64,000 bases of DNA from Cellulomonas shaoxiangyii (GTDB lineage: Bacteria; Actinomycetota; Actinomycetes; Actinomycetales; Cellulomonadaceae), in assembly GCF_004798685.1 (NCBI RefSeq), contig NZ_CP039291.1:2728001-2792000 (forward strand), written 5' to 3'. The translations under genes and the position numbers were made by a program. Under the pieces are notes generated by a model. That model was not told the DNA's origin and made no database searches. It worked only from the letters and a program-made list of their open reading frames with translations. Of the stretch, positions 7,647-25,418 are shown in pieces (within the stretch, counting starts at the first letter, position 1; the number at the start of each line of letters is the position of its first letter).

Positions 7647-7649
7647 CCC

Positions 7650-9032: not shown

Positions 9033-10402
9033 GGCGCGTCCCCGTCGCCGCCACGCTCGCCACCGCCGCCGCGGCGGGGCTGCTCGCGGTGGTCCCCGCG
9101 GCCGCCGCCGCCGGGACGCCCGTCACCACCGGCGCCGTCACGGCCGGTCCGGTCACGGCCGGTCCGGTCACGGCCGGCCCCCTCGCGGCCGGTCCCCGCA
9201 CGGCGGCCGCCGCCACGGGCTGCGAGCCCGGCAACGTGCAGTGGACGCCCCAGACGCCGCCCGCGCTCGACATGCTGCAGGCACGGCTGGCCTGGACCGT
9301 CACGCGCGGCGCGGGCGTGCTCGTCGCCGTCGTGGACTCCGGGGTCGACGCGGCGAACGCGCACCTGACGGACGCGCTGACGGGCGGTGTCGACCTGGTC
9401 GGCGACGGGCTCGGTGCCAACGGCTACGCCGACCTGCACGGGCACGGCACGGCCGTGGCCGGCACGATCGCCGCCCGCGAGCACCCCGGCTCGGGCGTCG
9501 TGGGGCTCGCGCCCGAGGCGCGGCTGTTCTCCGTGCGCGTGTTCGCGTCCGACGACCAGAAGGCGCGCGAGGCCGGCGTCGGACCCGACGCGACGCGGCT
9601 GGCGGACGGCATCCGCGCCGCCGCCGACGCCGGGGCCCAGGTGGTCGCCGTCGCGATGTCCAGCCCCGACGACACGCCCGCGCTGGCCGAGGCCGTCGCC
9701 TACGCCGCGGGGCGGGGCGCGCTCGTCGTCGCGTCCGGGGGGAACGCGAGCACCGAGGAGGGCACGCGCTACCCCGCCGCCGCGCCCGGTGCGCTCGGCG
9801 TTACCGCCGTCGACGCCGCGGGCAGCCCCTCGCTCGCCACCCACCACGGGCCGCACGTGCGCGTCGCGGCGCCCGGGCAGCAGGTGCTCACGAGCGCCGT
9901 CGCCGCCGGGGACTGCATGTACGCGCAGCAGGAGCCGCGCGCGAGCTTCGCGACCGGCTACGCGGCCGGCGCCGCCGCGCTGGTGGCGGCGGCGCACCCG
10001 GACGAGACGCCCGCGCAGTGGGCGCACCGGCTCGAGGCCACCGCCGTGCGCCCGGACCCGGACCACCGGGACGACGCGATCGGGTGGGGCGTCGTCCAGC
10101 CGTACGAGGCGATCGTGCTCGTGCCCGACGGGTCGATCCGCGGCCCGGCGGACCCCGTCACGGGTGCCGCCCCCGCGCCGCTGCGCCCGGAGGTCGCCGC
10201 GCCCCGGGTGCACCGCTCGCAGGACCCGTGGGGGCCCGTGCGTGGCATGGGGACGGTCGTCACCGTGCTGGCGCTCAGCGCCGTGGGCGTGCTCGGTGCC
10301 GTCGCGGTGCTCCGCACGCGCCGGCACGCTCCGGCCGTCGACCCGGTGGGCGAGCCGGGCGACGCGGCGCGCGACGAGGACGCCGACGACGCAGCGCGCT
10401 GA
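9029..10402 (+). CDS. mycP: Mycosin-type subtilisin-like protease (second copy)
   Basis: 457 residues from GTG 9029, overlapping the eccB stop. Signal peptide about 1-28. A low-complexity stretch of TAGPV repeats (about 34-56) precedes the catalytic domain. Triad: Asp103 (VVDSGVD), His139 (GHGTAVAG) and Ser306 (ASFATGY, where the usual Thr before Ser is Ala). The oxyanion Asn is present (ASGGNAS). A C-terminal TM lies about residues 410-432, followed by a cytoplasmic Asp-rich tail. This copy looks enzymatically complete, unlike the one at 3434-4858. It completes the eccD-eccB-mycP operon. Confidence 0.9.
   Translation: MRRVPVAATLATAAAAGLLAVVPAAAAAGTPVTTGAVTAGPVTAGPVTAGPLAAGPRTAAAATGCEPGNVQWTPQTPPALDMLQARLAWTVTRGAGVLVAVVDSGVDAANAHLTDALTGGVDLVGDGLGANGYADLHGHGTAVAGTIAAREHPGSGVVGLAPEARLFSVRVFASDDQKAREAGVGPDATRLADGIRAAADAGAQVVAVAMSSPDDTPALAEAVAYAAGRGALVVASGGNASTEEGTRYPAAAPGALGVTAVDAAGSPSLATHHGPHVRVAAPGQQVLTSAVAAGDCMYAQQEPRASFATGYAAGAAALVAAAHPDETPAQWAHRLEATAVRPDPDHRDDAIGWGVVQPYEAIVLVPDGSIRGPADPVTGAAPAPLRPEVAAPRVHRSQDPWGPVRGMGTVVTVLALSAVGVLGAVAVLRTRRHAPAVDPVGEPGDAARDEDADDAAR
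9137..9181 (+). repeat. 15-base tandem repeat inside mycP
   Basis: Three copies of GTCACGGCCGGTCCG (9137-9151 and 9152-9166 identical; 9167-9181 diverges at its end). They encode the TAGPV repeats between signal peptide and protease domain. Copy number probably varies between strains. Confidence 0.8.
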
Positions 10403-10444: not shown

Positions 10445-11200
10445 TCAGCCGAGCAGGGTGCGGACCACCAGCACGAGGCCGCCGACGCACGCGACGGACA
10501 CCACCACCACCGCGGCGACGGCGCCGCGCGCCCACGAGCGGGCGGCCAGGTCGACCGACCGCATCGCGGCCGCCTCCCCGCGCAGCGCCGCGGTGCCCTC
10601 GAGGGGTGCGGCGTCGGCCGGCGGCGGCGGCACCGGACGGGGCCGGTAGCGCTCGCGCTGAGGCGTGGGGGCGTCGGCCGGTGCCGCCCACGCGCGCGAC
10701 GCCGACGGCTGCGGCGCCGGCGACGCGTCCGTGCGGGGCGCGCGCACCACGGTGCGCTCGTCGGGCAGGTCGTCCGGCCGGTCGCCGCCGGGGCGCGGCG
10801 CTCGGACGGAGGTGCGGTCGTCGAGCGGCTCGGCGGGCGCGGCGGCGCGGCGCACCACCGTCCGGTCGTCGGGGGCGCCGTCCCCCGCGGGTGCCGGCGA
10901 CGCGGGCGTCGCGCGCACCACGGTGCGGTCGTCGAGGCCGTCGCCGGCCCCGGTCCCCGCGCCGGCCCCGGTGACGGCGCCGCGCACGACCGTGCGCTCG
11001 GCCGCCGGCGGGCCGTCCGGTGCGGTGGGCGCCGCGGCGGGCCGCACGACGGTGCGGTCGTCGAGCGGCTCGTCCTCGACGGTGGCGGCCGGGGACGGCG
11101 CGGGCGTCGGCGGCGGGCCCTCCGGGGCGGTCGACGGCGGCCCCCCGGCCTGCTGGTCGGGTGCGGGCGTCGTGCGCCGCGTGCGGCGGAACAGGCTCAT
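10445..11200 (-). CDS. Tail-anchored protein with six (D/E)RTVVR repeats
   Basis: 251 residues from ATG 11200, overlapping the PP2C-like gene stop as ATGA. Residues 40-155 hold six copies of a motif (D/E)RT(V/S)VR with Thr at 50, 70, 93, 114, 130 and 150, spaced 16-23 residues in Pro/Ala-rich linkers. A TM segment lies at the extreme C-terminus (about 225-248), so the repeats should face the cytoplasm. The regular Thr in an acidic/hydrophobic setting looks like a kinase substrate array for FHA docking; kinase, FHA and phosphatase genes are in the same operon. Family not recognised; the phospho-site idea is inference. Confidence 0.75.
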   Translation of the reverse strand: MSLFRRTRRTTPAPDQQAGGPPSTAPEGPPPTPAPSPAATVEDEPLDDRTVVRPAAAPTAPDGPPAAERTVVRGAVTGAGAGTGAGDGLDDRTVVRATPASPAPAGDGAPDDRTVVRRAAAPAEPLDDRTSVRAPRPGGDRPDDLPDERTVVRAPRTDASPAPQPSASRAWAAPADAPTPQRERYRPRPVPPPPADAAPLEGTAALRGEAAAMRSVDLAARSWARGAVAAVVVVSVACVGGLVLVVRTLLG

Positions 11201-12018
11201 CGGCGGACCACCCGGGTGTCGTCGTCCACGGTGTCGGTGCGGGTGCCGGTCCCCCGCGAGGTGTCGTCGAGGCCCGGCGACCGCCCGCCCGACAGGACGT
11301 CGACGACCACGACGGTCACGTCCTCCCCGGTACCGGCCCGGGCGGCGTGGCCGACGAGCGCCGACGCGGCCGTGGCGGGGGCCCCGCTCAGCGCGAGGAC
11401 CGCCTGGACGGTCTCGTCGGCGAGGTTGCGCGCGAGACCGGCCGAGCACAGCAGCAGCCGCTCCCCGTCGACGACCGGCAGGAGCCACGAGTCGGCGGTG
11501 GCGTCGGGCGCCCCGACGGCCCGCGTGAGCGCGGCTCGTCCGCCCGGGCGGCGCGCGCCCGGCCGCTCGGACCGGGCCTCGTCGGGTGCCTGCGTGTGGT
11601 CGACCGTCAGCAGGTGCAGCTCCCCGCGCAGCAGCCGGTACACGCGTGAGTCGCCGACGTTGAGGACGAGCCAGTGCGGCCGCCCCTCGTGCAGGGTGAG
11701 CACCGCACCGGTGACCGTGCTGCCGGTGCGCCCGCCGGTGTCGCGGGCCAGCGCCCCGACCTCGACGTGCGCGCGCTCGAGCGCGCGGCGGACCTGGTCG
11801 AGCGTCGCCGGTGCGCCGGCGGGGACCTCGGCGGTGAAGGCCGCGACGACGGCCGCGCTGGCGGCGGCACCCGTGGCGTCGGCGCCGGTGCCGTCGGCGA
11901 CGACGAACACCGGTGGGGCGACCCGGCACGCGTCCGCGTTGCCCGCGGCGAGCCGCCCGGTCTCCGTCGCGGCCGCCGTGACGAGCACGACGCCGCCGAC
12001 CTCGTGGCGGCCGGTCAC
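11197..12018 (-). CDS. PP2C-like protein phosphatase with altered metal-site residues
   Basis: 273 residues from GTG 12018 (GTGA overlap with the FHA gene stop). PP2C motifs in order: GNADAC, VADGTGAD, GSTVTGAV, LNVGDSRVY, LLCSAGLA, GTGEDVTVVVVD. The first two metal Asp positions are kept, but the usual SDG is SAG and the usual DN is ED, so two later metal positions look changed. It may be a weak or dead phosphatase, or may use neighbouring acids. The C-terminal tail ends DDDTRVVRR, a shuffled form of the RTVVR motif of the next gene. Expected to reverse or buffer the kinase at 24282-25418. Soluble, with no TM seen. Confidence 0.82.
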   Translation of the reverse strand: MTGRHEVGGVVLVTAAATETGRLAAGNADACRVAPPVFVVADGTGADATGAAASAAVVAAFTAEVPAGAPATLDQVRRALERAHVEVGALARDTGGRTGSTVTGAVLTLHEGRPHWLVLNVGDSRVYRLLRGELHLLTVDHTQAPDEARSERPGARRPGGRAALTRAVGAPDATADSWLLPVVDGERLLLCSAGLARNLADETVQAVLALSGAPATAASALVGHAARAGTGEDVTVVVVDVLSGGRSPGLDDTSRGTGTRTDTVDDDTRVVRR

Positions 12019-13286
12019 CGGGCCCGCCCCGTGCGCTGCTCCAGCACCATGCCGACGTCGCCGAGCCGCACGCGTGCGGGGACCCGCGCCGGCTCCCCGC
12101 GCGGGAGCAGGCGCTGCGCGCCGTCCGCGTCCGCGACGACGACGCCGTTGGTCGAGCCGAGGTCGGTGACCCACCACGTGCCGTCGCGCAGCTCGAGGCG
12201 CGCGTGGGTCTTCGACAGCGTGCGGGTCGTGTCCGGCAGCGCGACGACCTGCGTCGTGCCGTCCGTCTCGGGCGGACGACGACCGATCACCACGAGGGGC
12301 CGCTCGAGCGGCACGACGCGCCCGTCGTCGAGGCGCAGGCGCCAGCGGACGGCACGTGGGCGGACCACGGTGCGCTCGGCGTCGGCCTCGGCGTCGTCCG
12401 TCGCGGGGAGCCGCGGCGCGCCGAGCGTCGTCGGGACGTCCGCCGCCGGCGGCTCCGCGACCGTGGCGAGCGGGTCCGGCACGGGGAGAGCCGCGTCGAC
12501 GCCCGCGCGGGGCGGCGTCGCCGGCACGGTGGCCGCGGGCGCCGGGTGCTGCGGCGGCAGCGGGAGCGCGCCGGGCGCCGCGAGTGCGGGCTGCGCGGGC
12601 ACCGCGGGTGCCGGCTGCGCGACCGCGGGCGCCGCGGGTGCGGGCTGCGCAGGCGCCGTGGGCGCGGGGGCGGGCCGCGCGGCGGCGGGCGGCGCAGTGG
12701 CGGGCGGCAGCGGCGCGGGCGGCCGCGCAGCCGTCGCGTCGGCCGCCGCCGCTCGGGTGCCCGGCGCGGGCCCGGTGTGCCCCGCTCCGTCCCCGAGCGT
12801 GTCGCCCCGCACTCCGCCGGGCGTGCCCGCGGGGGACGCCTCCGGCGCGGTGGCGTCCCGCGGTGCCCGCGCCCAGCCCACCACGCTCGCCCACACGGGC
12901 GGCAGCAGGACCGCGAGCACGGTGCTGCCCGCACCGCGGCCGAGGTCGCGCCCGATCCGGTGCGCCGCGACGCCGCGCAGCGCGACGCCCCACAGCTGCA
13001 CGACGGGCACGAAGAGGTACACGACGGACCAGCCCGGCACGCCGCCGCGCTCGTACAGCTCGGCCTCCTGCACGACGGGCGTCCACGCCTTCCACGTCGG
13101 TGCGCCGAGGCGCCGGAACAGCGCCGCGAGGGCCGCGCTGTACCAGACCCAGCACGCGAGGGCGACGAGCAGGCCGACGCCGCCGAGCACGACGAGGGTC
13201 GCGCGGGCGGCCTCGGCGGCCGCCGCCTCCTCGGCCGGGGTGGCGGTCGGCAGCATCAGCACGAGCGACGCGAGCGGCACGCTCAC
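12015..13286 (-). CDS. Membrane protein with C-terminal FHA domain
   Basis: 423 residues from GTG 13286 (GTGA overlap with the transglutaminase-like gene; a second GTG two codons on is possible). Three to four hydrophobic segments (about 30-140) contain a DUF5684-like pattern (APTWKAWTPVV, then PGWSVVYLFVPVV). A long Pro/Ala linker follows (about 150-310), then DAERTVVRP, then an FHA domain (about 335-420) with IGRRP, SKTH and LGSTNG, the residues that hold phospho-Thr. It is therefore a membrane-bound phospho-Thr reader carrying one copy of the RTVVR motif itself. It sits between the transglutaminase-like and PP2C genes. Confidence 0.88.
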   Translation of the reverse strand: MSVPLASLVLMLPTATPAEEAAAAEAARATLVVLGGVGLLVALACWVWYSAALAALFRRLGAPTWKAWTPVVQEAELYERGGVPGWSVVYLFVPVVQLWGVALRGVAAHRIGRDLGRGAGSTVLAVLLPPVWASVVGWARAPRDATAPEASPAGTPGGVRGDTLGDGAGHTGPAPGTRAAAADATAARPPAPLPPATAPPAAARPAPAPTAPAQPAPAAPAVAQPAPAVPAQPALAAPGALPLPPQHPAPAATVPATPPRAGVDAALPVPDPLATVAEPPAADVPTTLGAPRLPATDDAEADAERTVVRPRAVRWRLRLDDGRVVPLERPLVVIGRRPPETDGTTQVVALPDTTRTLSKTHARLELRDGTWWVTDLGSTNGVVVADADGAQRLLPRGEPARVPARVRLGDVGMVLEQRTGRAR

Positions 13287-15844
13287 TCCTCCTCCGCGTC
13301 GGGCGCCTGCGCGCCGGTCCGGTGACGTCCGGGGGCGAGGGCCCGGCCGAGCGACGCACCGCTCAGCGCGGCGCCGACGCGCCGCCACGGCGGGTGCTCC
13401 TGCGCGAGGGCCGCCACCTCGGCGTCGGTCGCCGCCCACGCGGCGGCGGCGTCGTCGGGGCCGGGCGGCACGGCCGCGAACACGGCACGGTCCACGATCC
13501 TCGCGAGCTCCACGGCTCCGGGGCGCCCGGACGCGGCCGCGGCGGCGGCCCGGGTGGGCCCGGCGAGGGGACGCCCGAGGTCGGTCGAGCGGTCGACGAG
13601 CTCGGCCCACGCGCCGACGACCGCGACCTCGGGCACGGCGGCGCGCCGGCGCCGGCGGCGCCGGACGGCCTTCGCGACGGGAAGCACGAGCAGGGGCGCC
13701 ACCAGCAGGGCGAGCCCGCCGGCGACGAGGCCGACCGTGCGCAGGACGGCGAGCCAGGGGCTGTCGCCGAAGCGCGCCTCGTCGTCGCCGTCGCTCTCGT
13801 CGGTGCCGGACCCGTCCCGGCTGAGCACGGGCGGGTCGACGACGGGCAGCTCGGGCGGCTCCACCGTGGTCGGGTTCTGCGGCGCCTGCGTACCCTGCTC
13901 GACGCGCACGGGCGAGTGCGCCACCTGCGGGTCGACGTCGAAGGTGACCCAGTCGCCGCCGGCGCTGCGGACCTCCACCCAGGCGGCGAGGTGCGCGCCC
14001 GTGCAGACCTCGGTGCACGCGGGCACGGTCGCGCCCGGGACGTCGTCGAGGCGCACGCCCATGACGACGCGGGACTCGTACCCCAGGTAGCGCGCGACGA
14101 GCGCCGCCGCCGCGGCGAGCTGCTCGGCGTCCGCCACCGCGGCCACGAGGGCGGCGTCGTCGGCGCCGGCCCCGAGCGCCTCCTCCTGCTCGATGAGCTC
14201 GGTGAAGACCTCCTCGACGCGGGCCCGGGAGTGCCCGGCGTAGCTGGTCTGGAACACGTAGGGAGCCTGCGCCTGCAGCGCGGAGATCCACGCGTCGGCA
14301 GCGGCGTCGTCCGCGACGGCGTGGCTCAGGTAGCTGCGTGCGCGCAGGCGGTCGACGAGGGTCACGAGGCCGTCGGCGTCGCGGGCGACCTGCTGGGCGT
14401 CGACCCAGGCAGCGAGCTGCGGGTGCTGCTCGGCGAGCGCCTCGGTGTCGACCTGGCCGGGCGCCGCGAGCACGTCGGCGTCCGCGCGGGCCGTCGGGGC
14501 GGCGGCCACCCGGTAGGAGTCGCCCGGGGCGAGCCCGCGCCCGGCGGGCCCGCCGTCGGCCACCGTCACCGCGGAGCCGTCGTCGGGACCGAGGTAGAAG
14601 GCCGCCGCGAGCGCGTCGGCGCGCAGCCCGGCGAACCGGGGCGCCGCCACGACGCCCGACGGCACCGGCACCCAGATGCCGGACCACGCGTCGCCCACGA
14701 CGACCTCGACCTGCGCGGTCGCGCCCGCGGTGGACGAGCGCGGCAGGCGCAGGAACCGGCCGGACGCACCGTCGGTGCCGACGCGGAACGACGCGCCGTC
14801 GTACGCGTCGAGGACGGCCGTGCGCAGGCGGTCCACGCCCGTGCCGTCGACGTCGACGCGGAACAGCTCGGTGTCGTACGCGTCGGTGCGGAACGACGCG
14901 CGGTACGACGTCAGGGGGCTGGGCTGGCGCTGCACGGCGAGGACCGGCTCGACGTCCTCGCGCAGCACGTGCCGCTGCGCCCAGCCGGGCGTGCCCGGCG
15001 CGGCCCACGCGGCCGCCCCGGCCGCGAGGCCGACGAGCACGAGCCCGGCGACGACCCGGCCGGCGGTCGTGGCCACGCCCCGCCGGCGGCGGCGCGCCTG
15101 GGCGCCGCTGCCGACCCGCACGGCCTGCCGCCGGGCGAGGGCCGCGCGCAGCACGGCCCACAGGACGGACCACACGACGAGGCCCACCAGGCCGAGGGTG
15201 GTCCGCGCGTCGGGCACGCGGACGGGGCCGAGGTCGAGCGCGGGCTCCGGCGCGACCGGGCCGAACGCGGGGCCGAGCAGCGCGAGCACGGCCAGGACGG
15301 GGACGGCGAGGACCGCCCGGGCGTCGCGGCGCACGGCCAGCGGCGCGGCGACGGCGGTCGTCACGACGACCGCGACGAGGAACGGCACGAGGACGGCCTG
15401 GTACTCCTCGACGGGGAGCTCGAGCGTCAGCAGCTGCTTCCAGCCCACGACGACCCCGGCGAGCGCCTCGACCACACCGACCGGCAGGCCGCGCACGTCG
15501 GCGCGCCACGGCACCGCGACGGGCACGGACACGACGACGAACCCCGCCGCCACGACGAGCACGCGGCGCAGCACGCTCCACCGGCGCGCGCGGCCCAGCA
15601 GCACGACGCCGGCCCCGACGAGAGTCCCCGCCGCCGCGACGACGGCCAGCCGCCACGTCCCCCACACGGGCCATGCGAGGACGACGGCGATCGCGACCGC
15701 GCCGACCAGCCACAGGACGCCGAGCAGCCGGTCGGCGCGCCCGCTCCCCCGGCCGGCGGCCGGGGGCCGCCCGGGACGGCGCGCCGCGGCGGGCGCGGGC
15801 GCGGCGGGGCGCTCGCGCACGGGGGCGTCGAGGAGGGCGCTCAT
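13283..15844 (-). CDS. TgpA-like membrane protein with transglutaminase fold lacking the catalytic Cys
   Basis: 853 residues from ATG 15844 (ATGA overlap with the DUF58 gene). About six to seven TM helices in residues 40-290 are followed by an extracytoplasmic region, a transglutaminase-like core (about 560-660), another TM (about 705-730) and a cytoplasmic C-terminal domain. The core keeps the His strand (GAHLAAWVEV) and the Asp (WVTFDVDP), but the Cys motif CEQFA reads DAEQLAA with Ala573 at the Cys position. It is probably a non-catalytic member. MoxR-DUF58-transglutaminase neighbours are a known set. Confidence 0.87.
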   Translation of the reverse strand: MSALLDAPVRERPAAPAPAAARRPGRPPAAGRGSGRADRLLGVLWLVGAVAIAVVLAWPVWGTWRLAVVAAAGTLVGAGVVLLGRARRWSVLRRVLVVAAGFVVVSVPVAVPWRADVRGLPVGVVEALAGVVVGWKQLLTLELPVEEYQAVLVPFLVAVVVTTAVAAPLAVRRDARAVLAVPVLAVLALLGPAFGPVAPEPALDLGPVRVPDARTTLGLVGLVVWSVLWAVLRAALARRQAVRVGSGAQARRRRRGVATTAGRVVAGLVLVGLAAGAAAWAAPGTPGWAQRHVLREDVEPVLAVQRQPSPLTSYRASFRTDAYDTELFRVDVDGTGVDRLRTAVLDAYDGASFRVGTDGASGRFLRLPRSSTAGATAQVEVVVGDAWSGIWVPVPSGVVAAPRFAGLRADALAAAFYLGPDDGSAVTVADGGPAGRGLAPGDSYRVAAAPTARADADVLAAPGQVDTEALAEQHPQLAAWVDAQQVARDADGLVTLVDRLRARSYLSHAVADDAAADAWISALQAQAPYVFQTSYAGHSRARVEEVFTELIEQEEALGAGADDAALVAAVADAEQLAAAAALVARYLGYESRVVMGVRLDDVPGATVPACTEVCTGAHLAAWVEVRSAGGDWVTFDVDPQVAHSPVRVEQGTQAPQNPTTVEPPELPVVDPPVLSRDGSGTDESDGDDEARFGDSPWLAVLRTVGLVAGGLALLVAPLLVLPVAKAVRRRRRRRAAVPEVAVVGAWAELVDRSTDLGRPLAGPTRAAAAAASGRPGAVELARIVDRAVFAAVPPGPDDAAAAWAATDAEVAALAQEHPPWRRVGAALSGASLGRALAPGRHRTGAQAPDAEEE

Positions 15845-17223
15845 GCGCGGGCCGTCCGGTGGATCAGCGGGCCGAGGTCGCCCAGCGCGCCGATGGTCAC
15901 GACCGTCACCTCGCGCAGCGTCCGCGCGGACGGGTCCGCGTCGCGCTCGCAGCGCAGCGCGATGACGGTGGTGCCGGCCGGCAGCGCGTGCGCGGCCGCG
16001 CGCAGCCGGTCGGCGCCCGGGACCGAGCCGACGACGAGGAACGCGACCGACATCTCCGGGCACGTCCCCGCCGCGAGGGACGCGACGTCCTCCAGCGGCG
16101 TCGCGCGCTCACCCGCCGCGAGCGTGCAGGTCGCGTCGAGCAGCGCCCGCGGCGTGGCCGTGGGCAGCGTGCGGAGGGACACGACCGCGCCGCGCGTGAC
16201 CCGGGGGGCCTCCTCGCTCGTGGCGACGTACGCGTCCTGGCCGTCGCGCAGCGCCTGCACGCCGAGCGACGCGAACACGCTCACCGCGAGCTCGAGCTCC
16301 TCCTCGTCGGCGAAGTCGTCGGTGGCGAGCCCCAGCAGCAGCGCGAGCCGCGAGCGCCGGGTCTCCTCGAACTCGCGGACCATGAGCCGGCCGACCTTCG
16401 CCGTCGACTTCCAGTGCACGTTGCGGCGCGAGTCGCCGGGCTGGTACTCGCGGATCGCGTGGAACGCGAGGTCGGACGCGACGATCTGCGCCGACGGCAT
16501 GCCCTCGAGGTCGCGCACCACGCCCGCGCTCGTCGACGGCACCACGGTCGTCACGGGGTGCACGTGGATCGTGCGCATGACCGGCCAGCGCTGCTCACGG
16601 CGCAGCAGGCCGACCGGGTCCGAGCGGGTGAGCGTGAGGGGCCCGACGTCGATGACGCCACGGCGGTAGGCGGCGACGTGCAGCGGCTCGTCGTGCGCGC
16701 GGCCCGGGCCGAGGAGCGGCACCTGCACCTCGACGAGGCCCTCGCCGACGGGCACGTCGACCAGCACGGGCAGCGCGGGCCGCCCGCCGGTGTTGACCAG
16801 CCGCACGGAGCCCGTGACCTCCCGGCCCGCGACCGCGCGGTCCTTGTCGAGCACGAGGTCGACGTCGTAGTCGTGCCCGCCGAGCAGGAACGGCGCCGAC
16901 AGCGCGAGCAGGACGGCACCCCCGACGGCGAGCACCCAACCGGCGGTCCACCCCGCGAGCGGCCCGAGCACGAGGCCGAGCAGGACGGCGCCGAGCACCG
17001 TCCAGCCGGCCGGCGTCAGCGTGCGCGTGACGGCGCCCCACGTGCGCGCGAGGGCCCGGCGCACCCGCTCGGCGGCGCGGCGCAGCACGAACCACGCGGT
17101 CGCCCAGGGGCCGCGCCGCGTCTCGACGACGCGGGTGATCGTCACCCCGCGCGTGCGGGTCGCGGCCCAGGTGCCGGTGCTCTCGAGCGTGCGCCGCTCG
17201 TGCGGGGAGTCCTGCGGAGCCAC
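15841..17223 (-). CDS. DUF58 domain protein
   Basis: 460 residues from GTG 17223, one base after the MoxR stop. Two TM helices near residues 70-108. The DUF58 signature IREYQPGDSRRNVHWK is followed by STAKVGRLMVREFEE near residues 255-295. The C-terminal half is vWA-like in fold in this family. DUF58 proteins occur as partners of MoxR ATPases and transglutaminase-like proteins; their exact activity is not settled. Its stop overlaps the next start as ATGA, so expression is coupled. Confidence 0.9.
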   Translation of the reverse strand: MAPQDSPHERRTLESTGTWAATRTRGVTITRVVETRRGPWATAWFVLRRAAERVRRALARTWGAVTRTLTPAGWTVLGAVLLGLVLGPLAGWTAGWVLAVGGAVLLALSAPFLLGGHDYDVDLVLDKDRAVAGREVTGSVRLVNTGGRPALPVLVDVPVGEGLVEVQVPLLGPGRAHDEPLHVAAYRRGVIDVGPLTLTRSDPVGLLRREQRWPVMRTIHVHPVTTVVPSTSAGVVRDLEGMPSAQIVASDLAFHAIREYQPGDSRRNVHWKSTAKVGRLMVREFEETRRSRLALLLGLATDDFADEEELELAVSVFASLGVQALRDGQDAYVATSEEAPRVTRGAVVSLRTLPTATPRALLDATCTLAAGERATPLEDVASLAAGTCPEMSVAFLVVGSVPGADRLRAAAHALPAGTTVIALRCERDADPSARTLREVTVVTIGALGDLGPLIHRTARA

Positions 17224-17224
17224 G

Positions 17225-18190
17225 TCAGGCCGTGCCGTTCTCCGCCGGTGCCGGGACGTCGAGCAGGATCTGGCCCATGACGGCGCTGGCCGTGACGCCG
17301 TCGAACTCGGCCTCCGGCTCGAGCATCAGGCGGTGGGCCAGCACCGGCTCGGCGAGCGTGCGCACGTCGTCCGGCGTGACGAAGTCGCGGCCGTGGACGG
17401 CCGCCCACGCGGTGACCATCCGGGACAGCGCGATCGCCCCGCGGACGCTGACCCCGAGGCGCACCTCGGCCGCGTGCCGCGTCGCGTTGACGAGCCGCAG
17501 CACGTAGTCGTGCACGATCGGGTTGACGTACACCTGCCCGGCCAGCTCGCCCATCTGCACGAGCGCCGAGGCGTCGGCGATGCCCTGCACGTCGCGCCGC
17601 GGGTGCGCCGAGCCCTGCAGGATCCGCATGGTCGACGCGTCGTCGGGGTAGCCCAGCGACGTCTTGATCATGAAGCGGTCCAGCTGCGCCTCGGGCAGGC
17701 GGTAGGTGCCGGCCGTCTCCACCGGGTTCTGCGTCGCGAGGACGACGAACGGCAGGCCGACCGACCGCGTGACGCCGTCGACCGTCACGTTGCCCTCCTC
17801 CATGACCTCGAGGAGCGCCGCCTGCGTCTTCGGGCTCGCGCGGTTGATCTCGTCGGCGAGCACGACGTTGGCGAACACCGGGCCGGCGTGGAACTCGAAC
17901 TCGCCGGCCTTCTGGTCGAACACCGTGATGCCCGTGACGTCGCCGGGCAGCAGGTCGGGGGTGAACTGGATGCGCGTCGAGGTCCCGCGGATCGTCTGCG
18001 ACACCGCGCGGGCCAGGGCGGTCTTGCCCGTGCCGGGGAAGTCCTCGAGCAGCACGTGGCCGCCGCTGACGGCGGCGGCGAGCACCAGCTCGACCACGTG
18101 GCGCTTGCCGAGGACGGCGTGCTCGACGTTGTCGACCAGGGCGCGGAAGGAGTTCGCGAACCAGGTCGTCTGCTCGGGCGTCAGGGGCAT
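17225..18190 (-). CDS. MoxR-family AAA+ ATPase
   Basis: 321 residues from ATG 18190. Walker A is EDFPGTGKTALA (about residues 49-60), Walker B VLADEINRA, then sensor 1 VVLATQNPVE and the MoxR motif RLPEAQLDRF. The C-terminal lid domain is complete. MoxR proteins are chaperone-like ATPases acting on vWA/DUF58 partners, and the DUF58 gene follows after one base. The upstream giant envelope protein is a plausible client; that is inference. No clear Shine-Dalgarno in the 32-base gap, so translation may depend on coupling. Confidence 0.95.
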   Translation of the reverse strand: MPLTPEQTTWFANSFRALVDNVEHAVLGKRHVVELVLAAAVSGGHVLLEDFPGTGKTALARAVSQTIRGTSTRIQFTPDLLPGDVTGITVFDQKAGEFEFHAGPVFANVVLADEINRASPKTQAALLEVMEEGNVTVDGVTRSVGLPFVVLATQNPVETAGTYRLPEAQLDRFMIKTSLGYPDDASTMRILQGSAHPRRDVQGIADASALVQMGELAGQVYVNPIVHDYVLRLVNATRHAAEVRLGVSVRGAIALSRMVTAWAAVHGRDFVTPDDVRTLAEPVLAHRLMLEPEAEFDGVTASAVMGQILLDVPAPAENGTA

Positions 18191-18222: not shown

Positions 18223-21200
18223 TCAGGGCGCGGGGGGCGGGGTCGGGGTGGGAGTGGGGGTGGGGGTGGGTGTCGGCTCGGCCGGCGGGGAGCAGCGCGC
18301 CCCGGCGTTGTCGCGCGTGACGTCCTCGAGGCCGTCGAGCGCGCCGGTCCACCTCAGCGCCCACGTCGTGACGAGGGCGCCGCGGCGCTGCTCCTGCGTC
18401 ACGGTGACCTGTGCGGCTCCGCGCGCCCACTCCGGCAGCTCGACGTCGCGCGCCGACGGCTCGGCCACGCAGGCGTCGACCGGGAAGCGTGCGGTGAGCG
18501 TGCCCGGCACCGAGCCCTCGCGGGGGACGGCCACGGCCGGCGAGCAGTTCGCGGGGCGGAACCTGCTGCACTGGCGGGCCTCGACGGACGGGTTCGCGGC
18601 GTTGCGGGGCAGCTCGAAGCGCGCCGGGTCCGTCCAGTCGCCGCCGGCGACGCGCACCTGCGCGACGGTGTTCCACAGCGTGGCGTCGACGCGGGGGGCC
18701 CGCGCGTCGAGCCAGCCGACCTCGCCACCGCGCAGGTCGGACGCCCGGTCGCCGACCGACCAGCCGTCGCCGACCGTGGGCGGCTCGAAGCCCGTGAAGA
18801 CGAGGACGCGGCCCAGGTCGACGCGCGCGGCGCCGAAGCCGTTGGAGCCGCACACGACGACCGAGTACTCCTCGTCGTTCTCGAGCCCGCCGATCGTCGC
18901 CGACTCCGAGACGACCCCGCGCCCGCCGAGCTGGGCCCGGCCGTCGCGGCCCATCGTGCAGGACGCCTGGTTCGCGTCGAGGAACGCGCCGTAGCGCAGG
19001 GACGTCGGCGCGGCGCTGCCGTTCGCGTTCACGGAGGCGCCGTCGACCGTGATCGAGCGGTCCCCCGGGCGGGCGGCACCGCCGGCGACCACGGGCGCGC
19101 CGGCGACCGTGACCTGCGCCTGCGACGGGCTCCCCGACGCGTCCGTGCCGCCGTTGGGCGGCGCGAACCGGCTCAGCGGCGTGACGGTGACCGTCTGCGC
19201 GCCGACGGGCAGGACGACCTCGACGGTCGTGTCGGCACCGCGCCGCGGGACCTCGCCCTCGACGCCGGTGACGACGAACGCACGGGCGTCGTCGGCCGCG
19301 GCGATGGTGACGCGCGCGACGCCCGCGGACGTCGTGGTCCGGGCCGGGTCGTAGATCGTCTCGGCGCTGACGCGGCTCACGGCGGGCGACGCGTACGCCC
19401 ACGCCTGCACGGGCGTGCTGTCGGGCGACTCGCCGACCGCGTTGCGCACGCGGGCGGTGTAGGCGTGCGGCTCGCCGTTGCGCAGCCCGCCGACCGTGCA
19501 GCGGTAGGTGCTCGCGCCGGCGGCGGAGCACGAGGCCCCGACGGGCGCGCCGTCCTGGTAGACGGTCACGCCGCTCACGGCGGGGTGCGCCCGCGCGGCC
19601 TCGCCGAGCTGCAGGTCGAGCACCACCGACGACGCCGCGTACGACGACATCGTCAGCGAGCCGGGCTGAGCCGGGAAGCCGAGCACGTCGAGGTCGACGC
19701 GGCCGGAGCCGAGGCGGCCCTGCGCGTCGCGCACGGTGAACGGCACGGCGCACGTGCCGCCCGAGGGCCGGCTGCCGGCCGGCCACGAGACGCGCACCGT
19801 GCCGCGGTCGCCCGCGCTCACGGTCGCCACGGCGCACGCGACGGTCCCGCCCGCGCCGACCTGCGCCAGCTCGAGGCCGGACCCGGGCTTGCCCGCGAAC
19901 GGGTCGTACTCCCCCGCGACGCCGACGACGGGGATCGTGCACCCGGCGCCGTCGGCGACGTTGCAGGTGGCGGCGATCGTCGCGCCACGGGGTGCGTCCG
20001 TCGGCGCCGCGCCGACGAGCAGGTCGACGGTCGACTGCAGGCCGCCGTACTGGGCCACGCGGACCGTGACGGTCGCGCGGGTGCCGGGCACCGCGCCCGC
20101 CCGGGCCGTGACCGCCAGCGTGCGGCCGTCCTGGCTGGACTCCAGCGTGCCCGCGGCGCCGGACAGGGTCGTGGCGTAGACGATCGACGCCTCGTCGCCG
20201 ACGCGCCCGCCCTCCCAGGACAGCATCTCGCCGAGGTCGATCGTCTCGGTCGCGCCCGGGGCCACCGTGCGGCTCACCGGCGCGAGCACGGCCTGCGGTG
20301 CCGCCGGGCGGATCTCGACGGGCACGAGCACGTCGGTCCACGTCTCCTGGCCGACGACCCGCACGCCCGCCGTGCACGTGTCCTGCCAGGGCGAGCCCGC
20401 GCCGGCGGCGTACCGGAGGGTGCCGTCGCCGGTGACCGTGCACCGCGCGGCCGCGCGCTGCACGACGGGCGTCGCGTCGGTGCGCACCTCGAGGCGGTCG
20501 CCCGGGCCCGCGTCGACGACGTCCGACAGCCGCGTCTCGGCGGTCGCGTCCTCGTCCACGGCGAGCGGCTCGAGGCCGTCGAACGTGGTCAGACGCATGT
20601 CGTCGAACGCGGGCACCCGGAGCAGGCCGTAGGCCCGCACGTCGGTGTCGCGCGCGTCCGTGCCCTCGAGGACGAACGGCACGACGGCACCCGCGCGCGG
20701 CAGCGGCCCGCCGATCCGCGTCCCGTCGACCGTCCACGTGTCCGCGGCGTCGCCCCAGACGGACAGCGTCAGGTCCCCCGGCCGGCCGTTGGCCCACCGG
20801 ACCTTCCCCTCGACGACGTCCACGCCGCCGGCGGCGAGCTGGTCGCGGTCGCGCAGCGTCACGACGGTGTCCGCCACGAGCGGCTGCTCGCCGGTCGCGT
20901 CGGCCACGACCTCGACGACGACGAGGCCCTCCGCGGTGCTCACGCCGTCGGCGGCCGTCACGGTGTAGACGTACGCGTGCACGCCGAGCACGTCGCCCGC
21001 GCCGAGCACGACCACGCCGTCCTCGAGGGACGTCTCCCGCTCGTCGACGAGCCCGTCGAGCCGCTCGGCCTCGGCGGTGCCGGGCAGCGCGTCGGAGCGC
21101 ATCGCCGTCAGGGTCAGCGCGCCGCCGTTCGGCTCGCGGTCGTTCGCGAGCGGCTCGAGCGTCACGGGCTCGGCCTGCCCGGCGGTGACGCGCACGTAGT

Positions 21201-24200
21201 CGACGTACGCGACGGGGGCGCCGCTGCGCGCGCCGGCGGGCAGCACGCCGACCCGGACCGTGCCGGTCGACGACGCGCCCCGGCTGTCGCGCACGACGTA
21301 CGTGAAGGCCACCTGCTGGCCGGGGGTCAGCGTGGGCGGCGCGACGAAGCGGACGCCGTCGCCGGTCTCCTCGACGGTCGCGGAACCCTGCCCCGGCTCC
21401 GGCCGCCCCACGCCCACGAGCGTCACGGCGTCGCCGTCCGGGTCGGTCCCCGCGGCCTCGAAGGGGATGCGCACGGTGCTCCCCGCGACCACCCGCCCCT
21501 CGAGGACCGGCGCGACGGGCGGCCGGTTCGCGGTCGCGTCGACGACCGTGACGGTGACCGTCGCGGACGACGTGCGCGAGGTGTCCTGGCTCCAGGCGAC
21601 GTCGTAGCCGACGGTGTACGTGCCCGGCGCCTCGGGCGCGACGTAGCGCACGGTGCCGCCCGAGACGAACGCGAGCTCGCCCGCGGTGCCCGACGTGACG
21701 AGGTCCGGCAGCAGCGTCGTGCGCCCGCCCATGGGGGCCACGTCGTTGTCGGTGACGGGGATGTCGACGGTCCCGCCGGCGCGCACGGTGGCGACGTCCG
21801 GCTGCGCGACGACGCCCTGCCCCGTGACGGCGCCGACGAGGAAGACCGCGACGCGGCCCTCGGTGCGCACCTCGGCGCCGTCCGTGACCGTCACCGTGAC
21901 GGTGCCGAGCAGGCCGGGTGCGGCGTCGGCGCTCGTGGCGCGCAGGCGCAGCGCGGTGGCGTCGATGACGTCCACGCCGAGCCCCGGCGAGTCGGAGGTC
22001 GCGAACGACACCATGAGGACGTGGCGCGCGGCGCCCTGCACGGCGGACACGACGTCGACCGTCGTGTCCTCGTGCGCCCAGACGTACGCGGTCGTGGGTG
22101 GCAGCACGACCGCGCGGTCGTCCGCCGGCACGCGCACGCGCAGCAGCGCCGCGCGCTCGACGCCCGTGACGTCGTCGTGGACCGTGAACGTCACCGGGTG
22201 CTCGCCGGCGGTGTTCGCGGTCACCTGCACGCGCATCCCCGCGCCCGTCGCGGCCACCGTGACACCCGCACCGCCGTCGACGCCCACCGGGACGACGTCC
22301 CGCAGGCGGTAGCGGCCCGAGCCCGCGGCGACCTGCGGCGCGAGGTCGACCGTGGTGGTGCGGGCCTCGCCCAGCACGAGCGCGGTGCCGTCGACGACCA
22401 GGTCGGGCGCCTGCTGGACGGCCACGTCGAGCGTCCGCTCGGTCGTGCCGCCCCGCGCGTCGGCGACGACGACGGTCAGCGCGGTCGACGTCGCGGCGGC
22501 GTTCGCATCGGTGTGCCGCACGGTCAGGGACCCGTCAGGTCCGGCGGCGACCTGCAGCGGCGCCGTGGGGTCGCCGACCTGCACCGACTGCAGCACGAAC
22601 GGGTCGCCCTGCGGGTCGACCCAGGCGTCGAGGATCCCGGTGCGCGCGGTGCCGCCCGGGGCGAGCACCACGGTCGGCCACGTCTGCGTGCAGCCCTCCA
22701 CGTCGCACCACGCGGGCGGCCCCTGCGCCTCGTCGGGGACCACCGTGAGCGTCACGGTGACGGGCTCGGAGCGGTCGGTGCCGTCCGTCACCGCGTACGT
22801 GAAGGTCGCGGACCCCTCCAGCGCCCCGATCGACGCGACGACCACCTGGTCGTCGTGGGCGAGCCGCAGCGACGCGAAGGCGGGGTCCGACGTGGGGCTG
22901 AGCGACTCGGCGTCGACCGTCAGCACGTCGCCCGTGTTCGGGTCGTGGTCGTTGAGCAGGACGGGCAGCCGGACGTCGGCCCCCGGGCGCACGCCGAACG
23001 CGTCGGGTGCGGCCACCGGTGGCATCTGCTGCGTGACCTCCTCGACCGCGTTCGTGCCGGTCGTGCGGTCGTCCTCCTGCGTGGCCGTCCACTGCGACAG
23101 CGGGACCGCGCGACCGTCGGGCACGGTCCACAGCGCACCGGACCCGGTCTCCTCCAGCACGGCACGGCCGCCGTTCGTGCGGACCACGGGGTGCAGGTCG
23201 GGCAGCGCCTCGAGCGCCTCGGCGTCGACCTCGAGCGCGACGGGCTCGGCGCCCGACGTCCACAGGGTGCCGGCCGTCCCGCTGAGCCAGGCGGCGACGC
23301 GCGTGCCGTCGGAGAGCCGCACGGGGGGCGCCGGCGAGCCGTCGGCGCTCTGCGTCCGCCGGGCGGCGCCCTCGGTCAGCGGCACCTCGACGAGGCCCTC
23401 GCGGTCGGCGACCAGCACGGACGTGCCGGTGGCCGTCGGCTCCTGCAGCACCGCGCCGGCGCCCGCCTCGGTGGGGACGGGCTCGTCCCGCGCACCGGTC
23501 CACAGCCGGCCGTCGGAGGCGTCCAGCAGCACCCAGTGGCCGCCCACGAGCGTCAGGCGCACGTCGACGACCTCGGCGGGGCCGTCGGCCACCTCGACGG
23601 GCCCCTCGAGCAGCTCGCCGTCGGCGGCGTCGAGCACGCGCAGCGTGCGGTCGGACGCGGCGTAGAGCGCGACGCGCCCGCGGTCGTCGACCGTCGCGGC
23701 GTCGGCGGCCCACGGCTCCTCGGGCTCGTCGTCCTCGGCGTCCGGCGTGGCCGACGCGGCCTGCACGCCCTCGGGGTCGAGCGGCGTCGCGGGCGTCGTG
23801 GGATCGGCGTCGAGGCGCCGCACGGAGGCGGTGCCGGTGTCGTCGAGGAACACGACCCACTCGCCGGACGCCGCGACCTGCTGCGTCCCGCCCGGCGTGG
23901 CGAGCGCCTCGGCACCCTCCTCGCCGTCGCCGGCGTCCTGGCGCAGGTCGGCGGGCACCGCCGGGTCGACGGTCCACAGCTGCTGCATGCCCTGCGCGAC
24001 GACCGCGGCGCGCGCACCGTGCTGCAGGACGGTCGTCGGGTCGTCGACCGAGCGCACCGTGTCGATCTCGCCGAGCTCGGTGTCGAAGCGCGCGTACTGG
24101 CCGGCGTCGCGCGTGACCCACACGGCCGTCTCGACCGCCGGCGTGCGCTGCGCGTCGTAGCCCTGCGCGAGCACGGCGCCCGTGACCACGAGCGCGCCGA

Positions 24201-24285
24201 CGACGACCACGGCGGCGGCACGCAGGCGCGCGGGGAGCCGGCGGGCACCGGGGGCCGGGGCGGGCGGCGCGGCGGGGCGGTTCAC
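18223..24285 (-). CDS. 2020-residue anchored envelope protein: propeller-like region, Ig-like repeats, Fn3
   Basis: Starts at GTG 24285, overlapping the kinase stop as GTGA. A short basic N-terminus and one TM (about residues 22-41) leave the rest outside. Residues about 45-420 have repeated W/D/G beta patterns like a propeller (LWTVDPAV, RLWTGARDE, ALWTVPDG). From about 425 come repeated bacterial Ig-like domains with the signature PDAFGVRPGADVRLPVLLND, recurring as PDVATVRAGGTVDIPV and others. Near the C-terminus are Fn3-like units (NGEPHAYTARVRNAVGES), Cys pairs and a PTPTPTP tail. Likely a surface sensor, adhesin or wall-spanning scaffold tied to the kinase. Length makes it one of the largest genes here; the single open frame supports the call. 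Confidence 0.85.
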   Translation of the reverse strand: MNRPAAPPAPAPGARRLPARLRAAAVVVVGALVVTGAVLAQGYDAQRTPAVETAVWVTRDAGQYARFDTELGEIDTVRSVDDPTTVLQHGARAAVVAQGMQQLWTVDPAVPADLRQDAGDGEEGAEALATPGGTQQVAASGEWVVFLDDTGTASVRRLDADPTTPATPLDPEGVQAASATPDAEDDEPEEPWAADAATVDDRGRVALYAASDRTLRVLDAADGELLEGPVEVADGPAEVVDVRLTLVGGHWVLLDASDGRLWTGARDEPVPTEAGAGAVLQEPTATGTSVLVADREGLVEVPLTEGAARRTQSADGSPAPPVRLSDGTRVAAWLSGTAGTLWTSGAEPVALEVDAEALEALPDLHPVVRTNGGRAVLEETGSGALWTVPDGRAVPLSQWTATQEDDRTTGTNAVEEVTQQMPPVAAPDAFGVRPGADVRLPVLLNDHDPNTGDVLTVDAESLSPTSDPAFASLRLAHDDQVVVASIGALEGSATFTYAVTDGTDRSEPVTVTLTVVPDEAQGPPAWCDVEGCTQTWPTVVLAPGGTARTGILDAWVDPQGDPFVLQSVQVGDPTAPLQVAAGPDGSLTVRHTDANAAATSTALTVVVADARGGTTERTLDVAVQQAPDLVVDGTALVLGEARTTTVDLAPQVAAGSGRYRLRDVVPVGVDGGAGVTVAATGAGMRVQVTANTAGEHPVTFTVHDDVTGVERAALLRVRVPADDRAVVLPPTTAYVWAHEDTTVDVVSAVQGAARHVLMVSFATSDSPGLGVDVIDATALRLRATSADAAPGLLGTVTVTVTDGAEVRTEGRVAVFLVGAVTGQGVVAQPDVATVRAGGTVDIPVTDNDVAPMGGRTTLLPDLVTSGTAGELAFVSGGTVRYVAPEAPGTYTVGYDVAWSQDTSRTSSATVTVTVVDATANRPPVAPVLEGRVVAGSTVRIPFEAAGTDPDGDAVTLVGVGRPEPGQGSATVEETGDGVRFVAPPTLTPGQQVAFTYVVRDSRGASSTGTVRVGVLPAGARSGAPVAYVDYVRVTAGQAEPVTLEPLANDREPNGGALTLTAMRSDALPGTAEAERLDGLVDERETSLEDGVVVLGAGDVLGVHAYVYTVTAADGVSTAEGLVVVEVVADATGEQPLVADTVVTLRDRDQLAAGGVDVVEGKVRWANGRPGDLTLSVWGDAADTWTVDGTRIGGPLPRAGAVVPFVLEGTDARDTDVRAYGLLRVPAFDDMRLTTFDGLEPLAVDEDATAETRLSDVVDAGPGDRLEVRTDATPVVQRAAARCTVTGDGTLRYAAGAGSPWQDTCTAGVRVVGQETWTDVLVPVEIRPAAPQAVLAPVSRTVAPGATETIDLGEMLSWEGGRVGDEASIVYATTLSGAAGTLESSQDGRTLAVTARAGAVPGTRATVTVRVAQYGGLQSTVDLLVGAAPTDAPRGATIAATCNVADGAGCTIPVVGVAGEYDPFAGKPGSGLELAQVGAGGTVACAVATVSAGDRGTVRVSWPAGSRPSGGTCAVPFTVRDAQGRLGSGRVDLDVLGFPAQPGSLTMSSYAASSVVLDLQLGEAARAHPAVSGVTVYQDGAPVGASCSAAGASTYRCTVGGLRNGEPHAYTARVRNAVGESPDSTPVQAWAYASPAVSRVSAETIYDPARTTTSAGVARVTIAAADDARAFVVTGVEGEVPRRGADTTVEVVLPVGAQTVTVTPLSRFAPPNGGTDASGSPSQAQVTVAGAPVVAGGAARPGDRSITVDGASVNANGSAAPTSLRYGAFLDANQASCTMGRDGRAQLGGRGVVSESATIGGLENDEEYSVVVCGSNGFGAARVDLGRVLVFTGFEPPTVGDGWSVGDRASDLRGGEVGWLDARAPRVDATLWNTVAQVRVAGGDWTDPARFELPRNAANPSVEARQCSRFRPANCSPAVAVPREGSVPGTLTARFPVDACVAEPSARDVELPEWARGAAQVTVTQEQRRGALVTTWALRWTGALDGLEDVTRDNAGARCSPPAEPTPTPTPTPTPTPPPAP
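18238..18275. repeat. G-rich simple repeat encoding the PT tail
   Basis: The plus strand carries repeated GTGGGGGTGGGGGTGGG-like runs that encode the C-terminal PTPTPTP tail of the giant envelope protein on the minus strand. The G-runs on the template strand could form a quadruplex near the end of the gene. Likely length-variable. Confidence 0.6.
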
Positions 24286-25418
24286 CCGAGGACCCCGGAG
24301 ACGACCAGCAGCAGCACCACGGCCGCGACGGCCGCGGCGCCGACGAGGGCGCCCACGACGCCCGCCTGCCACGCGGCGCGCCGCGCCGGCCCGTGCACGA
24401 CGAGCCCGTCGCGGTCCACGGCGAGCTCGGCGGACACCCGCTCGGCCCGCGCCTCGGCACGGCTGCGGGCGCGCACGCGCGAGACCACGGGCCCGCGGGC
24501 GCCGTGGTCGGCGACCTCCACGGGGCTGGCGCCGGCGGCCCACTCGGCCGACGGGACCTCGAGCGCCGTGGGCGGCTGGCCCAGGTCGTACTGCGCCCAG
24601 CGCAGCTCCTCGGCGAGGGCGAGCATCGACGGGTGCCGGTGGGACGGGTCCTTCGACATGGCGCGGGCGAGGATCTGCTCGACGCGCTCGGGCACGTCGG
24701 CGCGGCCCAGGGGCGCCAGCTTCGCGCGCACGATGCGGCCGGCCATCGCCTCGCGCCCGTCGCGCGCGCGCTCACCGACCTCGAACGGCGCGCGGCCCGT
24801 CAGCAGCGTCCACAGCGTCGCCCCGAGGCTCCAGACCTCGGCCGCCACGGACCCGGCGACGCGCTCCTCGAGCACCTCGGGCGCGCTCCACGGCACCGAC
24901 ATGGCGATCGCGGGGATGCCCGTGGAGCCCGAGACCGCGGCGGCGATGCCGAAGTCCGCGAGCGCGGGCGTCCCGAGCGACGTGCGCAGCACGTTCGACG
25001 GCTTGATGTCGCGGTGCAGGACGCCCGAGCGGTGCGCGGTCTCCAGCGCGGAGGCGAGCCGCACGCCGACGTCGAGCACCTCGGGCACGGCCAGCGGCCC
25101 GCGGCGCGCCCGGGCGCCGTACGTGTCGAGGCAGTACTCCATGACGATGTAGGGCCGGCCGTCCGCCGAGACGCTCGCCTGGTGCACCGTCACGACCGCG
25201 GGGTGCACGGACAGGCGCGCGAGCACGTCGGCCTCCGCCTCGAACGCCCGCTGCGCCACGGGGTCGTGCAGCCCCTCCGCGAGGACCTTCACCGCGACGA
25301 CGCGGCGGGGCATGTCCTGCTCGTAGCAGAAGACGTCGGCGAACCCGCCCACGCCGAGCGGGCGCACGTAGGTGTAGCCCGGCAGCACCGGGGGGGTCCC
25401 CGCCACACGACGTGCCAC
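24282..25418 (-). CDS. Membrane Ser/Thr protein kinase
   Basis: 378 residues from GTG 25418, with GGGAG six bases upstream. Kinase motifs: Gly loop GVGGFADVF, Lys in VVAVKVL, LHRDIKPSNVL catalytic loop, ADFGIA metal loop, SAPEVL. Domain about 10-275, then a basic juxtamembrane stretch and a single C-terminal TM (about 350-375) with only two to three residues outside. It has no PASTA or other sensor domain of its own; the giant envelope protein encoded next (GTGA overlap) could supply sensing. Head of the eight-gene operon. Probable substrates are the RTVVR-repeat protein and FHA partners. Confidence 0.93.
   Translation of the reverse strand: MARRVAGTPPVLPGYTYVRPLGVGGFADVFCYEQDMPRRVVAVKVLAEGLHDPVAQRAFEAEADVLARLSVHPAVVTVHQASVSADGRPYIVMEYCLDTYGARARRGPLAVPEVLDVGVRLASALETAHRSGVLHRDIKPSNVLRTSLGTPALADFGIAAAVSGSTGIPAIAMSVPWSAPEVLEERVAGSVAAEVWSLGATLWTLLTGRAPFEVGERARDGREAMAGRIVRAKLAPLGRADVPERVEQILARAMSKDPSHRHPSMLALAEELRWAQYDLGQPPTALEVPSAEWAAGASPVEVADHGARGPVVSRVRARSRAEARAERVSAELAVDRDGLVVHGPARRAAWQAGVVGALVGAAAVAAVVLLLVVSGVLG

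Follow-up and report, generated by a model that had tools for sequence, protein, structure and literature searches.

A stretch of 64,000 nucleotides from Cellulomonas shaoxiangyii (contig NZ_CP039291.1, positions 2,728,001 to 2,792,000), hereafter called the window, carries eight genes in a row on its minus strand. They encode a Ser/Thr kinase, a long Big_9/cadherin-like protein, the AAA+ ATPase MoxR, a DUF58 protein, a transglutaminase, a membrane protein with DUF5684 and an FHA domain, a PP2C-like protein and, at the end, a protein with six copies of a threonine motif, which is the subject of this study and is referred to as the array protein. An original prediction, made from the DNA letters alone, had described an operon headed by a Ser/Thr kinase, and this was confirmed by the eight same-strand genes and by overlaps of 4 nucleotides at four junctions (kinase/second gene, DUF58/transglutaminase, FHA/PP2C and PP2C/array). 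The kinase, long surface protein, MoxR, DUF58 and transglutaminase genes follow the order of PFNA operons, with Big_9/cadherin-like domains in the second gene, at the FN3 position, where the fn3 match stayed under the Pfam cutoff. The window operon is of the PFNA type.

The array, FHA and PP2C features lie where the original prediction had placed them, and the six threonines of the array protein are residues 50, 70, 93, 114, 130 and 150, as it had stated. Its description of six (D/E)RTVVR copies holds for the number of Thr copies but not for their spelling, since five read RTVVR while the copy at Thr130 is DRTSVR. Single copies just before the FHA domain (DAERTVVRP) and at the very end of the PP2C-like protein (DDDTRVVRR) were likewise found as described. 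The array protein gave five matches to [DE]xT[VILR][VILS]x0-2R, compared with a mean of 0.07 and a maximum of 2 in 300 shuffled versions. When the 3.9-megabase genome was scanned with a degenerate 14-base DNA pattern spanning part of the possible RTVVR codons, 24 matches were obtained against 4 for the backward control, five of them in the array gene and one in the FHA gene. The C-terminus consists of a single hydrophobic segment. The features of the locus are collected in Table 1, with start codons of our own choice.

Table 1. Features of the operon and of the array, FHA and PP2C proteins in the window.
Feature	Position	Strand	Remarks
Array gene	10445..11200	minus	251-residue tail-anchored protein, six Thr motifs
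Motif copy 1, DRTVVR	11042..11059	minus	T50
Motif copy 2, ERTVVR	10982..10999	minus	T70
Motif copy 3, DRTVVR	10913..10930	minus	T93
Motif copy 4, DRTVVR	10850..10867	minus	T114
Motif copy 5, variant DRTSVR	10802..10819	minus	T130
Motif copy 6, ERTVVR	10742..10759	minus	T150
Second motif RYRPRPVPP (Y..R)	10625..10651	minus	between array and transmembrane segment
C-terminal transmembrane segment of array protein	10463..10525	minus	residues 226-246; hydropathy
PP2C-like phosphatase gene	11197..12018	minus	
PP2C C-terminal motif DDDTRVVRR	11200..11226	minus	
DUF5684 + FHA membrane protein gene	12015..13280	minus	
FHA protein motif ERTVVR, in DAERTVVRP	12360..12377	minus	T304, 30 residues before FHA Arg (R334)
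FHA domain	12081..12293	minus	residues 330-400; Pfam FHA over cutoff; AlphaFold2 model
TgpA-like transglutaminase gene	13283..15844	minus	
DUF58 gene	15841..17223	minus	
MoxR AAA+ ATPase gene	17225..18190	minus	
Long Big_9/cadherin-like protein	18223..24285	minus	2020 residues; at PFNA fn3 place
Ser/Thr kinase	24282..25418	minus	C-terminal transmembrane segment

The array protein had no NCBIfam match at E 0.01 and a single Pfam match under its cutoff, and homologue searches with the window array alone, either whole or as its C-terminal part, returned zero matches at E 0.01. A profile built from 13 relatives, on the other hand, retrieved 144 homologues, and among the 120 of these that were shown, which carry 1 to 7 motif copies each, any named ones were called 'hypothetical' or 'uncharacterized'.

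Related operons were collected by a scan with the PP2C alignment, which gave 80 loci. Those with a MoxR at least 66% identical to that of the window (23 loci, L095 being excluded by hand) were defined as type 1, and three loci at contig edges (L045, L051 and L054) were added by means of their FHA and PP2C genes to a total of 26. The original prediction had named the absence of the repeats from otherwise conserved operons as grounds for giving it up; an array protein adjoined PP2C in 25 of the 26 type 1 operons, and in the remaining one (L057) the contig stops shortly after PP2C, so that the outcome favours the prediction. Arrangements of their own were observed in L058, with a second FHA gene between PP2C and array, in L063, with the array gene ahead of PP2C, and in L079, where the array is weak with only one or two copies. 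In L060 (10821-12272) and L061 the gene immediately following PP2C encodes a fusion protein with a degenerate kinase domain and the array behind it, as supported by Pfam on L060 only. Three related operons (L031, L032 and L033) have an array gene after PP2C that was missed by tblastn with the window array. The set of 28 arrays used below comprises the 25 type 1 arrays, the window, L031 and L032, L033 being the genome of L115. The loci L056 and L074 were dropped as candidates, with MoxR outside the examined stretch and no array seen after PP2C. We also examined a second sample of 30 PP2C loci, each from a different genome, of which at least four (window, L032, L115 and L052) were already represented in the first sample. 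In 28 of these loci PP2C is followed by an open reading frame with at least two motif copies (counted without a shuffled control), the exceptions being L142 and L147.

Shuffling of the 28 arrays predicted 1.7 motif copies, whereas 108 were observed. A collection of 145 copies from the same arrays, selected with a pattern in which Thr is fixed and acidic, hydrophobic and Arg residues are required nearby, showed an acidic residue at -2 (97%), V/R/I at +1, V/L/I at +2, V/R/S at +3 and Arg at +5 (86%). The motif generalises to [D/E]xT(V/I/L/R)(V/I/L)…R, with DxTVVVxR as the commonest form in relatives, RTVVR as such being a local dialect. The acidic residues are in line with the preference for neighbouring acidic residues at mycobacterial phosphosites, as reported in the part of PMC6554272 that was accessible.

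When the Thr place was left open in the strict pattern, Thr occupied it in 57/58 and 16/16 matches from the 28 arrays, with no Ser, and in 389/389 and 23/24 matches from the 120 database homologues. With a wider pattern the 28 arrays yielded 132 matches, 108 of them with Thr and 2 with Ser, and the 120 homologues yielded 558, of which 425 had Thr and the rest mostly Val or Ile; we take the non-Thr matches to be frame-shifted readings of the same copies. Across 2002 aligned pairs of the 120 homologues, which are not independent of each other, Thr was retained in 99.5% of the 9094 cells aligned with a motif Thr and in 63.3% of the 16881 aligned with other Thr, with replacement by Ser in 2 (0.02%) and 504 (3.0%) cells, respectively. 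Thr being kept almost without exception, the array is probably a switchable docking strip. A second motif, Y..R, was seen in 27 of the 28 arrays, and Y..R..P in 115 of the 120 homologues, both counted without a shuffled control.

A usable FHA protein was available in 26 of the 28 operons (L058 has another form and L079 gave no match). In all 26 the motif Thr stands 30-32 residues ahead of the FHA Arg, and the pocket residues GR, SK.HA and TNG are invariant (R40, S62, T83 and N84 in alignment numbering). The AlphaFold2 model of the window domain is a confident FHA fold (mean predicted local distance difference test score 84) with strand 1 starting at model residue 19, and places the motif outside the fold, its Thr ending a disordered stretch of the first ten residues. 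Among the structural neighbours of the domain are ArnA, EmbR, GarA, OdhI and FhaA, as well as two FHA domains solved together with a peptide from the same protein, namely MDC1 (N-terminal phosphopeptide) and DgcB (tail). The FHA profile matches the structures of GarA, OdhI and FhaA.

The PP2C-like protein of the window has lost the metal-site aspartates, SDG being replaced by SAG and RDN by EDV. The loss is confined to two of the 28 PP2C proteins, the one in the window and its counterpart in Cellulomonas telluris (L039), and 26 keep the residues. The change from CSDGL to CSAGL in the window is the same as that between the PDB sequences 2j82 and 2xzv, and from these residues both proteins are probably pseudophosphatases.

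The window kinase has the VAVK Lys, HRD and DFG, and its linker is devoid of the motif. HRD and DFG were found in all 17 type 1 kinases lying within the examined stretches, none of which (0/17) has the motif in its juxtamembrane linker. The situation is the opposite in a sister type (type 2), which comprises the 44 loci of the PP2C scan with a kinase match, excluding L060 and L061, and has MoxR within the examined stretch in 34 loci and outside it in 10. Here 41 of the 44 kinases have [DE]x0-2T[VILRM][VILMA]R after the kinase domain, compared with a mean of 1.85 and a maximum of 7 on shuffling, in every one of the 41 in the juxtamembrane linker ahead of the transmembrane segment, the linkers without it being those of L064, L100 and L105. 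With the Thr place open and ten residues tabulated, the counts were Thr 47, Gln 5, Ser 2 and Val 1. An array-like gene was found in 0/44 sister loci by a test that recognises 21 of 27 type 1 loci and misses six. Since the sister kinases have the linker motif and no array, and the kinases of array operons have no motif, the putative docking motif seems to be carried either by the kinase or by a separate array, and the fusions in L060 and L061 suggest a possible route by which it could have moved. The linkers of type 2 kinases (for example in L062, L069 and L075) have motifs resembling DERTLLRAP. The pattern occurs in only 9 of 76 FHA matches of the sister type, where EETRIS is often seen by eye just before the FHA domain.

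From these comparisons the array protein is probably, albeit by no means certainly, a multi-copy docking scaffold on which phospho-Thr made by a kinase would gather FHA proteins. The protein is tail-anchored with the repeats probably on the cytosolic side, and the membrane kinase of the operon, or another kinase, would phosphorylate Thr in each (D/E)RTVVR copy. The phosphorylated residues could then each be bound by an FHA domain of the DUF5684-FHA membrane protein from the same operon, and several FHA proteins would thereby gather on one scaffold. By the same switch the copy on the FHA protein itself might link FHA proteins together or hold them closed, and that on the PP2C tail might bring in the phosphatase-like protein. 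The sequences themselves show the anatomy of the proteins, their conservation and the intact kinase motifs, as well as the conservation of Thr rather than Ser, the fixed spacing between motif and FHA domain and the intact phospho-Thr pocket, and these last three fit phospho-Thr docking. The phosphorylation, the binding, the cytosolic side, the clustering and any effect of the cluster on the MoxR/DUF58/transglutaminase module are inferred. The reading offered by the original prediction is, taken as a whole, partly supported.

Several observations weigh against such a scaffold. The residue at +3 is Arg in the window motif, while it is mostly Val in relatives and the FHA domain of DgcB uses a hydrophobic +3, according to the accessible part of PMC6733907. 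The motif on the PP2C tail was recognised by pattern in only 23 of 28 proteins, and a PP2C without the metal-site aspartates may not erase the phospho mark in the window. The agreement between the motifs of array and FHA protein exceeds that of random pairs (p 5e-5), but a test for tight co-evolution did not show it: the own array beat that of the nearest relative in 13 cases, lost in 12 and tied in 1 of 26, and the match in 'dialect' is no better than relatedness explains. The fixed spacing could also serve something other than phospho-docking.

One alternative starts from the FHA protein itself, whose own phosphorylated copy would fill its own pocket as in GarA and OdhI, with the array copies competing for the pocket and opening the protein, so that the array would act as a competitor and not build clusters. 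The motif directly before the FHA domain at fixed spacing (26/26), the profile matches to GarA, OdhI and FhaA, and the binding of the DgcB FHA domain to its own tail (PMC6733907, as far as the source was available) all favour autoinhibition; the sequence and model leave only about 8 residues between Thr and strand 1, which may be too short for Thr to reach its own pocket, and we regard this mechanism as unlikely. The array might instead be a sink or decoy that absorbs kinase activity or delays the response by multi-site buffering, without any FHA reader. Many equivalent sites per protein, in numbers that vary from 1 to 7, would suit such a buffer, but it leaves aside the occurrence of the same motif before the FHA domain (26/26) and on most PP2C tails (23/28), as well as the retention of Thr and not Ser that a phospho-Thr reader would demand, and it is accordingly held to be improbable.

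The conservation of Thr bears on two further explanations. Hydrophobic residues follow Thr in most copies, a feature partly required by the selecting pattern, and a TVV strand might pair with the beta edge of a partner independently of phosphorylation, Thr being kept for its strand propensity. This is very improbable in our view, given that matches to the strict pattern never have Val or Ile instead of Thr (389/389 Thr) and that the AlphaFold2 model shows a disordered motif that is not part of the fold. The Pro/Ala-rich composition and the variable copy number would even agree with an expansion of functionless low-complexity repeats, but 108 copies against 1.7 by shuffling, and a motif Thr that is nearly invariant while other Thr change, leave this explanation next to no credit, and repeat noise was rejected.

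Phospho-Thr/FHA docking is established for GarA and MDC1, and GarA has an acidic-Thr motif N-terminal to its FHA domain. The window FHA protein resembles GarA and OdhI in the position of the motif and in profile and fold, but differs from them in being a DUF5684-FHA membrane protein, in the distance of about 8 residues between motif and strand 1, and in having extra copies on a separate protein. The tail of Rv3910/MviN has one single phosphosite. In that system the phosphorylated tail of a membrane pseudokinase recruits the FHA protein FhaA (PMC12599244, in its accessible part; PDB 3oun), and the degenerate kinase domain fused to the array in L060 and L061 is reminiscent of it, whereas the repeat array is absent and the operon is a different one. 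The Agrobacterium type VI secretion system protein TssL, an inner-membrane protein with a kinase-marked phospho-Thr14 that is read by Fha, differs from the array in having one site and belonging to a secretion apparatus, as described in the available part of PMC3953482. TIFA, MDC1 and DgcB have a Thr motif before their own FHA domain and may bind in trans, head-to-tail or to their own tail, but a dedicated multi-copy partner protein is not mentioned in the accessible parts of PMC7083832 and PMC6733907. The PFNA-like sister operons have the same class of motif, but on the kinase linker and without an array-like gene.

The Bifidobacterium PFNA operon, as given in the accessible part of PMC8430577, consists of pkb2, fn3, aaa-atp, duf58, tgm, prpC, a hypothetical gene 7, and fha. 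It shares with the window the order of kinase, long surface protein, MoxR, DUF58 and transglutaminase, with PP2C and FHA after them, but differs in having prpC, gene 7 and fha after tgm, where the window has FHA, PP2C and array. A motif array is not mentioned in that part of the source. The original prediction knew of no described system with this motif array, and our literature search likewise found no description of the array (and nothing relevant for the exact motif strings, subscription papers being outside its scope). The operon as a whole is of the known PFNA type. What is new is the dedicated multi-copy array tied to PFNA-type operons, and not phospho-Thr/FHA docking as such. Gene 7 was considered as an array counterpart and rejected for L149, which has a Bifidobacterium-like order after tgm and in which gene 7 (7911-9151) encodes a leucine-rich-repeat-variant (LRV_2) protein. 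In L149, the FHA protein has DWDSTVLSS before the domain, and the PP2C ends IEDATLQTLRTIRSA.

More tentatively, the distribution of the motif might mean that in one PFNA-type branch an FHA docking site left the kinase linker, perhaps by way of a pseudokinase fusion, and multiplied on a tail-anchored protein, so that the number of phosphorylated copies would set the size of a membrane assembly, by a logic comparable to that of TIFA polymers. If this were true, species could differ in their signal threshold according to the number of copies. The docking scaffold would provide a protein family that lacks a functional name with a role open to testing, and PFNA-type operons with a candidate phospho-Thr code that links the kinase to the FHA protein. 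With several equivalent sites per scaffold, such a pair of kinase and reader would also allow multivalent phospho-signalling to be studied in a simple bacterium.

On the plus strand of the window (6312-10402), genes for the type VII secretion proteins EccD and EccB and for a subtilase converge on the array gene. The subtilase beside EccD and EccB stands at the place of a mycosin.

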